64,000 bases of DNA from Moesziomyces globuligerus. Lineage: Eukaryota > Basidiomycota > Ustilaginomycetes > Ustilaginales > Ustilaginaceae. Positions 17,477 to 51,325 of this stretch are shown piece by piece. Each line of letters opens with the position of its first letter. The stretch's first letter is position 1. A model generated the notes under the pieces. The model was not told the DNA's origin. It saw nothing but the letters and a program-made list of their open reading frames with translations, and ran no database searches. The stretch covers positions 1,426,001-1,490,000 of the forward strand of contig JARVLF010000016.1 of NCBI GenBank assembly GCA_030849465.1. The letters are read 5' to 3'. A program made the position numbers and the translations under genes.

Positions 17477-17582
17477 TGACAAGAGTGGGATTCGAACCCA
17501 CGCCCGAAGATAGCAGGTCACTTCCCAAATACTCAGGATATCTTCCTTAATGCTACGCCTTAGACCACTCGGCCATCTTGCC
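17477..17582 (-). tRNA. tRNA-Leu(AAG) with a 28-nt intron
   Basis: On the minus strand the 5' half begins GGCAAGATGGCCGAGTGG. The acceptor stem GGCAAGA pairs with TCTTGTC (one G-T) and is followed by discriminator A. The D-stem is GCC/GGC. The anticodon stem TAGCA/TGCTA closes a loop in which positions 34-36 read AAG (17546..17548), decoding CUU/CUC leucine codons once A34 is modified to inosine. The 28-nt intron, 17517..17544, lies one base 3' of the anticodon, the canonical place. A long variable arm with a CTTCGGG hairpin and a perfect T-arm (GTGGG TTCGAAT CCCAC) follow. The long variable arm and the A discriminator both fit leucine. Confidence 0.93.
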
Positions 17583-45721: not shown

Positions 45722-46684
45722 TTTGATGAATGTCTTGACGGGGTGGAGATGGTGAGGGAGAGCAAGCTGATGATAGCGACGACGGCCTTTCCACACTCTG
45801 GGCCTGGCTGGCTACCTGGCGCCGGCAGCCTGGCAGCTTCGGCTCTGCAGCCTGGCTCCGACCTGGGCGAATGCGGTTCCGCAAGCCTGCCTGAAATTCT
45901 CAAGCCAGCCGACGCTTCTCAAACTTGCGGTCCAGCCTGACTGCCGACAGCCACTGAGTGCGCGCGGCCAAGGCTCGGGCGGCAGAGCGCGGTGCCCATC
46001 GCACACTCGAGTTCCCACTGCTTGTGGGCGGCAGCGAGGCGAGCTGGGAACGCCTGCGAGCTCCTCGGCCGAGCTTTGGGACAGATCACATGACTCAATA
46101 TTCCTACAATAATCCTAAATCGGGGGTTTCAGAACTCCAGCGCAGATCCGAGATCCATGCAGTCGCGTCAAAATCTACAGTCCGAGTTCCGAGCTGGGGT
46201 CACAGGACGACGCGAAATGGATGCGGGCCAAAATGAAAGAAGGTTGGACGCGATCACTGCCGCTGAGGGACGGGAAAGTGAGCGAGGCAGCGCCACGTCC
46301 GTGCAGGTTTGCCCATCCACACTTGAGTTCGGGAGAGCTTCCGCCCAAGGTTTCCTGGCTGCAGCATCCTGCAGCAATTTCTGGTTGCCTTGCCCTGTCT
46401 TGTCGAGCATCGCCCAATCATACTCACCAACCTCGCTTTAACTTAGCTTTTGCTCGGCGCCGCAACAAAGATGGTAAGTTGACGTCCTCTCAATAGAACG
46501 AGAGCACATGTGCCTGTGCGCTGCCAGCTGCAGCTGCGTGCGACACAAAAGTGTTGATCTTGGTCGAGCGTCGCACGGAGCTCATCTGATCATCTCATTC
46601 GCCTTGTCCCACTGTACGCTTCCCGCAAACCTCATCACCCATCCGCACCCGCTCTCGGTCGCCCTCTTGCCATCACTCACCACG
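45722..46684. promoter_or_regulatory. Divergent promoter region RPL18 / TRA2-like gene
   Basis: 963 bp between start codons. It contains the second copy of the two-part ribosomal-protein element (46063..46096), with TGACTCA inside it at 46091..46097, and an ATG with a strong donor at 46471 that I could not join to any gene. Confidence 0.5.
46063..46096 (-). promoter_or_regulatory. Two-part ribosomal-protein promoter element (copy 2)
   Basis: On the minus strand GAGTCATGTG (46087..46096), 13 nt, then CTCGGCCGAG (46064..46073) and G. It is about 340 bp upstream of the RPL18 ATG and points toward it, matching the copy near RPS12 in order, spacing, orientation and distance. Confidence 0.6.
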
Positions 46685-47800
46685 ATGGACTCGCTCGACA
46701 CCATGGACGTCAACATGGATCGTCGCACCGTTCCGGACTACAAGGACATTGATGAGGACCGCAGGCCTGAGTCGCCTCCGCGAGGCCGCTCGTACTCGCG
46801 CTCGCCCTCCACCACGCCCGTGCCTGGTCGACGTGCTCGCACGCCCGTCCGCAGCATGAGCCGCAGCCCCAGCCGCAGCCGTAGTCGCAGCCGCTCTCCC
46901 CTTCCCCGTCGACGCTCCCGATCCCCTGCTGCTCGTCGCTACGACAGAGATGACCGCGACAGGCGCGGCGACCGTCGCGATGACCGTCGCGACCGAGGTG
47001 CCCGCACGCCGCCACCTCCCCGTGGCGACCGCCGTCGCTCGCCACCTCCCAAGCCGCGCAACGCGCCCGCCCACGTCGACCCCACCACCGTGCTCGGCGT
47101 GTTCGGTCTCTCCATCCGCACGGTCGAGGCCGACCTGAACCACGAATTCGAGGCCATCGCTCCCGTTGACAAGGTCGTCATCGTCTACGATGCCCGCTCC
47201 GGCCGCTCGCGCGGCTTCGGCTTCGTCACCATGCGCACCGTCGAGGGCGCCAGCGCTGCCATCGACGCGCTCAACGGCAAGGACCTTCACGGCCGCCGCA
47301 TCCGCGTCGACTTCTCCACCACCCACAAGCCCCACGACCCCACCCCAGGCATCTACAAGGGTGAGGTGCGCCCCGACGACCGATACCAGGCACCGCCCCG
47401 AGGAGGCCCCGGTCGTGGTCCCCCCGGTCGCGGCGAGGGCTCGAGGTACAACGGCCGTGCCTACGACCGTGCGGCCCCCTCGTACCGCGACTCGAGGGAC
47501 CGCGGCGACTCGTACACCGGCTCGTCGTCCAGGCGCAGCTACGCAGACTCCCGAGACGACTGGCGCCGTCGCCCCTCACCACCCCGCAGGCCGCGCAGGT
47601 CGCCTAGCCCCGCCGGCCGCCGTGGCGGCAGCAGGTACTCGCGCTCGCCCAGCCCGCGTCGCGGAGGCGACAGGTACGAGGCCGACCGCTACGATGCCGA
47701 CCGAGAGGAGCGAGTGCCCCCTCCCTCGAGAAGCCGCCACGGAAGCCACCTCGACAGCCCCCCGCGCGAAGACAACGTCGAGCCCAGCCGATACTACTAG
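46685..47800 (+). CDS. SR-type RNA-binding protein (Tra2-like) with one RRM
   Basis: A 371-residue protein with the RS-RRM-RS layout of Transformer-2. An N-terminal RS region (SYSRSPSTTPVPGRRARTPVRSMSRSPSRSRSR, then Asp/Arg repeats) leads to a single RRM at about residues 130-210, with RNP2 TVLGVFGLSIRT and RNP1 SRGFGFVTM. A C-terminal Arg/Gly/Ser/Tyr-rich region follows (DRYQAPPRGGPGRGPPGRGEGS ... SPSPAGRRGGSRYSRSPSPRRGGDRY). Such proteins bind purine-rich exonic enhancers and regulate splicing. The ATG at 46685 is followed by in-frame ATGs at 46703 and 46715 (MDSLDTMDVNMDRR). No intron in the coding part. Confidence 0.85.
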   Translation: MDSLDTMDVNMDRRTVPDYKDIDEDRRPESPPRGRSYSRSPSTTPVPGRRARTPVRSMSRSPSRSRSRSRSPLPRRRSRSPAARRYDRDDRDRRGDRRDDRRDRGARTPPPPRGDRRRSPPPKPRNAPAHVDPTTVLGVFGLSIRTVEADLNHEFEAIAPVDKVVIVYDARSGRSRGFGFVTMRTVEGASAAIDALNGKDLHGRRIRVDFSTTHKPHDPTPGIYKGEVRPDDRYQAPPRGGPGRGPPGRGEGSRYNGRAYDRAAPSYRDSRDRGDSYTGSSSRRSYADSRDDWRRRPSPPRRPRRSPSPAGRRGGSRYSRSPSPRRGGDRYEADRYDADREERVPPPSRSRHGSHLDSPPREDNVEPSRYY

Positions 47801-48523: not shown

Positions 48524-50773
48524 TTACAATGACTGTGCGAGTTGGCGGCGGAGGTCGAGCATGGCGTGGATGAGGTTGTGGTTGTCGTTCCACCTCGTGT
48601 CGACGTCTACGCGGATGGAGCCGTCCTTCTGCAGAATGCGAATGAGTCGAGGGTCCGCTTTGCGTCCTTCGAGCCACTGCGCATGCACATCCTCACCCCG
48701 CAGAAAGCCCTGGTAAGGTTCCAGCCACTCGGCCACCTTGTCTTGCTCCGCTCCTGGCTGCAGGGAGGAGAACCACCAGACGTAGTCGTCGAACGAATGG
48801 CTCACGCCGCCGTAGGCCGGTAGCGCCCTATCGATCACCTGGGCACGGTAGTCGATACGGTAGCGCAAGATGCGATCCGGGTCCAGTCCACCGTCGATGA
48901 GGTCGGAGACAAACATGCGTTCGGCGATATACACCTGCGAGTCGGAGCAAACCCTTCCGAATGTCTCGCCGATCTCGTCCTGCGTCATCACGACGCCCGT
49001 GTCGTCGGCGTCGTCGTCGTAGCGCACACGGATGTTTTCGGAGCAGCCATCGCAGCTAACCAGGTCCACCTGATCGTGCACCTGCTCTTCCGACAGCACG
49101 TACGCCGAGCCGCACCGGCACGCGTAGCTGAACGTCAGCCCCGTCTCGCCGTGCTCGGCGGGCTGGAACGCTTCGAACTCGACCGTCGCCGAGATGCGCG
49201 GACCCGACGACTTGGCTGCCGCCGCACGCGCTGCAGCCAGCGAGTCATCGTACGACGCCCGCAGCCCGTCGTCGACGAGCGTCTTGTAGGCGTGGTTCAG
49301 CCGCCGGATCAGCGCATCCGATGACGCTAGCGACTCGGCCTCCGACGCCTCATCCTCCTGCGACACCACACGTCCACCACCCTGCTGCTGAAGCTTGTCC
49401 GGATGATGCTGTCGCACCTGCGCCAGATACGCCGCGCGGATCTCGCTCGTGCTCGCCGAGGCTCGTACTCCGAGCGTAGTATACAGCGATTCTGCCTCTG
49501 ACCCGACGACGTTACCGTTGCTCTGGTCCTTAGCGCTTTGCTCGCTCGTCGTCTTCGGCACGGAGACACCGTAGTACGGAAGCATCTTGTGCACGAGCGG
49601 TAGAGTGTAGTAGTTGTTGACCTGACGGACGAGCGAGTCCCTGTCCGTGGGCGTGTTGATGTAGCGGTACACCCACTCTTCTTCCGCGCACTCGCCGATC
49701 AAGAAGCGCACGCCGTGCTTCTGGGCCCACCTCGCCAATCTGCCGTCCATCATGGCGCGGGTCCAGTCGGGCTTGACGAACGCCGCTGGCTGCGAGTCGC
49801 GTGTGGCTCGGAAGGTATGCATCTGCATCCGCGGCAGCACGCGCGCGAGCTCCTCATCATCCACCTGGCGCAACCGGGCGATCTTTTCGGCTGCCGTGCG
49901 TTCGGCAGGCACGCCAAGGGCCGCTGCAAGCTCTTCGAACTGCGCCCTTGTCTCCTCCACGGGCTTCGAGGGCCATACGGCCGCATTGGACTGGAGGAAG
50001 ACCCTGCGGATGATGGGCTGGTAGGTGGTGTCACGCATGCAGAGGTCGAACTCGTGCAGGAGCTGCGAATGCGTGCTGTGCGCGCCTGCCGAGAGTCCGG
50101 CGAGGGTGATGTTGTGCGGATCGCCGCCAAAGTGCTGAATGTTGCGATGCACCCATTCGAGCGCAGCCCTCTGGTCCCAGAATCCATAGTTTCCCGTCAC
50201 GCCGTCGGCGTCCTCGGTGCGCAGCGCGTCGTGGGCGAGGAAGCCAAAGACATTGAGACGGTAGGCGGGCGTGACGACGATGGCCTCGAGGCCGGCGGTG
50301 TGCATCCAGTCGCTCGGATCCTTGTCGGGCGCAAAGTGCGCGTTGCCGATCTGGAGCCAGCCGCCATGGATGAAGCAGAGCACTGGAAGCTTGTGGCTCA
50401 GCCGCGAGCCGTCCGCACGCACGGGACACCAGATGTTGAGGTAGAGGCAGTCTTCGCTCTCCGCCAACACCGGGCGGTCGGGGATGGTGATGCCGTTGGT
50501 CAGCGCGTAGTTCGAGGGCTGCGGACACTGCTTGGCAAATTCCTGGTAGCGTCTGCCGTCAGCATCGTAGCGGTGGCTGCTGGGTAGAGGCTGTGGCCTC
50601 CTCCATCGAAGCGGCCCGACTGGAGGCTGCGCAAAGGGGATGCCCGCGAAACGCTGCGACTTGGCCTCGCCCGTGCGCTTGTCCTGCGCAACGCTTCCAA
50701 CGATCGTTCCCTGACTAGGGATCTCAACGCTAGCCGCAGCATGGTCGATAAACGTGCTCGACGCCTGCCCCAT
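48524..50773 (-). CDS. Type-B carboxylesterase with internal Dph4-like J domain and CSL zinc finger
   Basis: One intronless frame of 749 residues with a nested domain order. Residues 1 to about 410 are the N-terminal part of a type-B carboxylesterase/para-nitrobenzyl esterase: QRFAGIPFAQPPVGPLRWRRP, SEDCLYLNIWCP, PVLCFIHGGWLQIG (oxyanion loop), GNYGFWDQRAALEWVHRNIQHFGGDP, and the nucleophile elbow GLSAG with S228. A likely acid is in ECAEEEW (about E365). Residues about 428-512 form a J domain with HPD at 457-459, and about 528-586 a CSL zinc finger (C552, C554, C574, C577; CDGCSENIRVRY); this pair is the layout of Dph4/Jjj3, a co-chaperone of diphthamide synthesis. Residues about 600-749 return to esterase, with GGVSHSFDDYVWWF supplying H659. 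The triad is thus complete only if both halves are one chain. MGQASS fits an N-myristoylation signal. The frame is open 80 codons upstream, but without ATG. Confidence 0.85.
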   Translation of the reverse strand: MGQASSTFIDHAAASVEIPSQGTIVGSVAQDKRTGEAKSQRFAGIPFAQPPVGPLRWRRPQPLPSSHRYDADGRRYQEFAKQCPQPSNYALTNGITIPDRPVLAESEDCLYLNIWCPVRADGSRLSHKLPVLCFIHGGWLQIGNAHFAPDKDPSDWMHTAGLEAIVVTPAYRLNVFGFLAHDALRTEDADGVTGNYGFWDQRAALEWVHRNIQHFGGDPHNITLAGLSAGAHSTHSQLLHEFDLCMRDTTYQPIIRRVFLQSNAAVWPSKPVEETRAQFEELAAALGVPAERTAAEKIARLRQVDDEELARVLPRMQMHTFRATRDSQPAAFVKPDWTRAMMDGRLARWAQKHGVRFLIGECAEEEWVYRYINTPTDRDSLVRQVNNYYTLPLVHKMLPYYGVSVPKTTSEQSAKDQSNGNVVGSEAESLYTTLGVRASASTSEIRAAYLAQVRQHHPDKLQQQGGGRVVSQEDEASEAESLASSDALIRRLNHAYKTLVDDGLRASYDDSLAAARAAAAKSSGPRISATVEFEAFQPAEHGETGLTFSYACRCGSAYVLSEEQVHDQVDLVSCDGCSENIRVRYDDDADDTGVVMTQDEIGETFGRVCSDSQVYIAERMFVSDLIDGGLDPDRILRYRIDYRAQVIDRALPAYGGVSHSFDDYVWWFSSLQPGAEQDKVAEWLEPYQGFLRGEDVHAQWLEGRKADPRLIRILQKDGSIRVDVDTRWNDNHNLIHAMLDLRRQLAQSL

Positions 50774-51206: not shown

Positions 51207-51207
51207 G

Positions 51208-51325
51208 AACTGCAGCACCTAGGATTCCCGCGTGGTCCCCCACCGCAGTACTGACTAGGCGATACCTTGCTTAACTTCGCAGATCGGACGGGATGCGGTG
51301 CTTTCAAGGTTCTATGGCCGCAGAT
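51208..51325 (-). rRNA. 5S ribosomal RNA
   Basis: 118 nt on the minus strand. It reads ATCTGCGGCCATAG, then the conserved AAAGCACCGCATCCCGTCCG, GATCTGCGAAGTTAAGC, and GGGGGACCACGCGGGAATCC, and ends TAGGTGCTGCAGTT; the 5' and 3' ends pair as helix I. The internal control region (A-box, intermediate element, C-box) lies in the conserved middle part. A TATA-like box at about -22 to -30 and a T5 terminator flank it. Single dispersed 5S genes, away from the rDNA repeat, are common in many fungi. Ends are by comparison with other fungal 5S sequences and could shift by one or two bases. Confidence 0.95.

Follow-up and report, generated by a model that had tools for sequence, protein, structure and literature searches.

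Proteins of the Dph4/Jjj3/DNAJC24 type are small and stand alone, carrying a J domain followed by a CSL zinc finger. Dph4 has a housekeeping role, is conserved and assists in forming diphthamide, itself a conserved modification carried by translation factor eEF2. J domains engage Hsp70. In Dph3/Kti11, the CSL finger occurs as a stand-alone protein without a J domain. According to the passages of PMC5473770 drawn on here, diphthamide in yeast requires Jjj3. The exact function of Dph4 in diphthamide synthesis is called elusive or unsettled in the cited part of the review PMC8153317, where it is also stated that the CSL domain of human Dph4 binds iron and that work in yeast confirmed neither iron binding nor electron transfer. 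Extra domains on a diphthamide-pathway protein of eukaryotes are described in the relevant section of PMC3541065, in which Dph6 carries fused RidA domains.

Here we analysed a window of Moesziomyces globuligerus DNA (the whole stretch of 64,000 nt), in which a Dph4-like module lies within an open frame that begins as a carboxylesterase. The module resembles Dph4/Jjj3/DNAJC24 in the order of its domains, in its HPD motif and four CSL cysteines and in its similarity to DNAJC24 (PDB 2l6l) across both domains, but differs from these proteins in being embedded in a frame of 749 residues. It shares the CSL finger with Dph3/Kti11, which has no J domain. The N-terminal part (N part) resembles the type-B carboxylesterases (PF00135, including cholinesterases, liver carboxylesterases and Candida-type lipases) in its GxSAG serine and its aligned acid; in contrast to these enzymes, a foreign module of 167 residues follows the acid and the C-terminal part is not recognised as esterase, probably because of divergence. 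The locus differs from Dph6-RidA, as presented in that part of PMC3541065, which is a C-terminal fusion whose domains are proposed to serve the reaction, whereas the present case is probably an insertion into an unrelated enzyme. Both parts belong to known families. Among the matches listed from open-licence PubMed Central papers, no title or abstract opening described their combination in an esterase-Dph4 architecture.

Organization of the esterase-Dph4 gene

The features of the gene are collected in Table 1. The initial annotation had reported one uninterrupted frame of 749 codons, and a recount of the codons, the coordinates and the single stop agreed with it, as did a recount of the residues that it had named (S228, HPD 457-459, C552/C554/C574/C577 and H659). 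The start codon is the earliest in-frame ATG and lies in a good context (ACCATGG). Upstream of 50773 the frame stays open without a further ATG, and its open length in the six-frame search of the assembly is 868 aa. Searching Pfam with hmmscan returned COesterase, DnaJ and CSL in this order, each above its curated cut-off and far beyond chance. Beyond the module, the frame stays open for a further 158 residues. Translation of the frame confirmed that the module has neither a start nor a stop of its own, as had been claimed; the nearest upstream methionine, given as M398, is in fact M397.

Table 1 Features of the esterase-Dph4 gene (window coordinates; residue numbers refer to the 749-residue protein)
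Feature	Position	Strand	Basis or remark
Single open frame of 749 codons	48524..50773	-	ATG 50771-50773, stop 48524-48526
Carboxylesterase type-B N part, residues 15-389	49607..50731	-	COesterase, E 1.8e-65
Presumed nucleophile S228 in GLSAG	50090..50092	-	Ser in 45/45 aligned bacterial rows
Presumed catalytic acid E365	49679..49681	-	Glu/Asp in 45/45 aligned bacterial rows
M397, closest in-frame ATG ahead of the module	49583..49585	-	Within esterase sequence
Dph4-like module, residues 425-591	49001..49501	-	Boundaries set by eye; closest PDB relative DNAJC24 (2l6l)
J domain, residues 430-509	49247..49486	-	PF00226, E 3.5e-10
HPD motif, residues 457-459	49397..49405	-	Common to 7 other J domains of the same genome (alignment A2, the module plus these 7)
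CSL zinc finger, residues 532-586	49016..49180	-	PF05207, E 2.4e-13; C552, C554, C574, C577
C-terminal tail, residues 592-749	48527..49000	-	Probably the rest of the esterase fold; no family match alone, but His motif, lengths, two-block test
Presumed catalytic H659 in GGVSHSFDD	48797..48799	-	Placed on the catalytic His column by the top semi-global alignment, with a total score no better than shuffles

The GC3 values of the esterase N part, module and tail were 0.81, 0.80 and 0.78, respectively. The corresponding coding scores were 0.28, 0.36 and 0.33 bits per codon relative to a reference set of long window frames, taken without curation and including one that is antisense to another, and the 749-codon frame was the best of the six in each segment. 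Codon usage is thus continuous across N part, module and tail.

Several neighbouring features were also recorded. A 5S rRNA gene (51207-51325, minus strand; 115 bits with Rfam) lies directly upstream of the esterase-Dph4 gene on the same strand. The plus strand at 46508-47800 encodes an RRM protein with abundant Arg-Ser and Arg-Gly, judged SR-like by eye (RRM E 4.2e-14 for 46622-47800). At 17477-17582 (minus strand), a tRNA match over 106 nt suggests an intron-containing tRNA.

The module as the sole Dph4 found in the assembly

The assignment of the module to the Dph4/Jjj3 layout held up in both Pfam domains, in the motifs and in a PDB match spanning the two domains. All four CSL cysteines and the HPD motif are retained. 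When residues 425-596 were compared with all PDB sequences, DNAJC24 (2l6l) was the best match (E 1.8e-7, covering residues 6-159 of 172), followed by 1wge (deposited as a hypothetical protein), 2jr7 (a DPH3 homolog) and then J domains; eight sequences fell under 0.001, and the statement on the nearest relative applies to PDB.

Six-frame searches were run on the assembly, which comprises 18.5 Mb in 24 contigs. Two CSL fingers exceeded the Pfam cut-off, one in the module and the other in a Dph3-like protein encoded by a short frame on contig C12. A third CSL match (C6:1400778) was rejected as a Dph4, having an E value of 0.138, under the cut-off, and an internal stop. The whole module gave ten matches up to E 10, namely itself, the C12 Dph3 (5.8e-4) and eight at E values of at least 0.008. 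J domains gave 29 matches, 26 of them above the cut-off. In line with the earlier statement that no separate Dph4 gene was apparent, the six-frame CSL and whole-module searches found no second Dph4 in the 18.5-Mb assembly, although such searches are blind to introns and a Dph4 with an intron inside its CSL finger could escape them. Among the other J domains, that of a 403-aa open frame on contig C22 was found as two pieces 69 nt apart (L035 and L037, C22:63833-64120) and may carry a small insertion.

Genes or candidate genes for other steps of diphthamide synthesis were located as well. Dph1/2-type genes are present on contigs C18 and C24, and Dph6 on C8. There are two TP_methylase matches in the assembly, one on C14 and one on C2, the latter reading by eye as a Dph5 candidate. 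A Dph7 candidate on C6 carries motifs that we take to be typical of the Dph7 family. Because genes or candidates for Dph1/2, Dph3, Dph5, Dph6 and Dph7 are present, a Dph4 is expected in this genome, and since the pathway is otherwise complete, we infer that the Dph4-like module works. The module is therefore the sole Dph4 found in this assembly, and most likely a functional one. The possibility that the esterase stands in for the methylesterase Dph7 was rejected, as the separate candidate gene on C6 makes it unnecessary for the diphthamide methylesterase step.

The carboxylesterase N part

The presumed nucleophile S228 is invariant in alignments A3 (46 rows) and A1 (7 rows). The column of the presumed acid E365 was lost in later, contorted mixed alignments. 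In the predicted structure, the N part was confident and adopted a cholinesterase fold; the CSL finger and the tail were of low confidence, and the module alone, predicted without an alignment, had a mean pLDDT of 49.8 and was set aside. The initial annotation had placed the insertion between the catalytic Ser and His. Its position after S228 stands and can be narrowed, the module following the acid E365 and preceding the presumed His.

The protein starts with MGQASS (50756-50773, minus strand), which fits the N-myristoylation consensus, and no obvious signal peptide was seen by eye. This start and the lack of an obvious signal peptide are consistent with a cytosolic, perhaps myristoylated, protein.

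The C-terminal tail: esterase or unrelated extension

After the finger, the frame had been described as returning to esterase. Overall similarity of the tail to the family is not significant, and modest support for this description comes from the His motif, the lengths and a two-block test. Queried alone, the tail matched no Pfam family at E values up to 10; against PDB it gave two matches, both unrelated (E 0.58 and 0.59). When a profile built from 66 bacterial relatives (a usable frame was obtained from 66 of 80 loci) was run with hmmsearch, the tail was not set apart from 200 shuffles. In semi-global alignment, 83 of 150 shuffles equalled or beat the tail (z -0.3), whereas the C parts of six paralogues reached z values of 3.8 to 18.9, with His on the His column in five of the six. 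With hhalign and 72 sequences, the score of the tail was reached by 84 of 300 shuffles, and other hhalign modes performed no better. In an 8-block test the tail scored -0.5. Of 2000 shuffles, 184 reached this value, as did 53 of 356 windows taken from other frames; the six paralogues, themselves included in the profile, scored 43 to 137. As the paralogues were recognised by the same methods and the tail was not, the tail is either highly diverged or something else.

If it is something else, the gene would be an end-to-end fusion in which a truncated, dead esterase N part is followed by a Dph4 whose C terminus is extended by unrelated sequence, so that no fold would have received an insertion. 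The null results above favour this explanation, and so does the misfit of the post-His blocks to the tail: across six block subsets, the tail was equalled by 795, 202, 105, 25, 155 and 790 of 2000 shuffles, the last value being that of the post-His blocks. For three of the six subsets (blocks 1-4, block 4 alone and blocks 5-7), the highest-scoring position along the protein fell outside the tail. Against the fusion, the strand and His blocks gave the value of 25 of 2000, with no better placement elsewhere in the protein, this being the best of six block choices. The protein contains the His motif a single time, and 122 of 20000 shuffled tails and 53 of 72 family members contain it too; it was derived from the family and written after the tail had been seen. 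Once the module is subtracted, the acid-His spacing is 127 residues, within the family range of 45-136, and the protein length is 582, compared with a family median of 529; 90 residues follow H659, compared with a median of 94. When bacterial C fragments were aligned alone with MAFFT, all 30 His fell on H659 in two of six trials and not in the other four, and with N rows added this occurred in none of six; those later mixtures with window fragments that placed His on H659 did so at the cost of a misplaced acid region or of stretched N rows. Some fungal esterases have a similar His region of the GVTHATD type, which may serve as a lead. On the basis of the motif and the lengths, the tail is probably the rest of the esterase fold, and we regard the end-to-end fusion as rather improbable.

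Junctions, splicing and assembly

The GT-AG pair that had been put forward as the best flanking the module would break the frame, as claimed, since it spans 536 nt (49515-48980). Between donors of codons 380-440 and acceptors of codons 575-640, however, 19 GT-AG pairs keep the frame. Their existence would speak for a nested or alternatively spliced gene, with the module as an unusual intron or retained segment and the esterase and Dph4 made from different transcripts; M397 could then begin a product of 353 residues consisting of module and tail. The best donor among the 19 matches GTRAGT at four of six positions and none of the pairs has CTNAY within 80 nt before the acceptor, judged by a general fungal consensus that may differ in this genome. 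A removable intron with ends in these codon ranges was rejected on these grounds. The module also lacks its own start and stop, and its codon usage does not depart from that of its flanks. We therefore give such a nested arrangement a low probability, lower than that of the fusion. An error of assembly or sequencing that fused two genes is lower still, to the point of being very improbable. A single assembly underlies the frame, but two joins would be needed, both in frame, and the frame is uninterrupted within a contig of at least 1.49 Mb. Furthermore, no second copy of the module or of the tail was found in the assembly, and no listed repeat pair connects the junctions. Repeat D12 (49500-49510) touches one junction and has its partner inside the module, while repeat D2 (48980-49001) touches the other and has its partner within the N part. 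A mobile-element insertion was rejected, as no listed repeat pair joins both junctions. Overall, neither unusual splicing nor misassembly is likely to explain the locus.

Proposed model and implications

The explanation that we consider likely is that a single gene encodes a single chain, a carboxylesterase-family protein that carries a complete Dph4/Jjj3-type module in a surface loop between the acid and the presumed His. The esterase would fold around the module, and a loop insertion would require the two ends of the module to be near each other. As in other Dph4 proteins, the J domain would engage cytosolic Hsp70 and the CSL finger would assist Dph1-Dph2 at step 1 of diphthamide synthesis on eEF2. 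A cytosolic location would bring the J domain to the compartment in which it has to act. Hydrolase and co-chaperone are probably independent passengers on one cytosolic chain, and a functional coupling of the hydrolase with eEF2 modification is speculative. Such a protein would most likely have originated by in-frame insertion of a DPH4 coding sequence into an esterase gene, followed by loss of the separate DPH4.

A more far-reaching reading, which we hold to be doubtful, is that the sole Dph4 is a loop insertion in a catalytically competent esterase whose myristoylated start tethers the co-chaperone and Hsp70 to a membrane. If this were true, eEF2 modification would be tied to the abundance or location of the esterase. 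For the loop insertion as such, if the protein is made whole, a housekeeping co-chaperone would be paired with an enzyme in an unusual way, and it would be an unusual case of an entire two-domain co-chaperone accommodated within an enzyme fold. A Dph4 existing only inside an enzyme would amount to a natural domain-insertion experiment on the tolerance of both Dph4 ends, and would offer a handle on whether the function of Dph4 depends on diffusing freely or on a specific location or partner.
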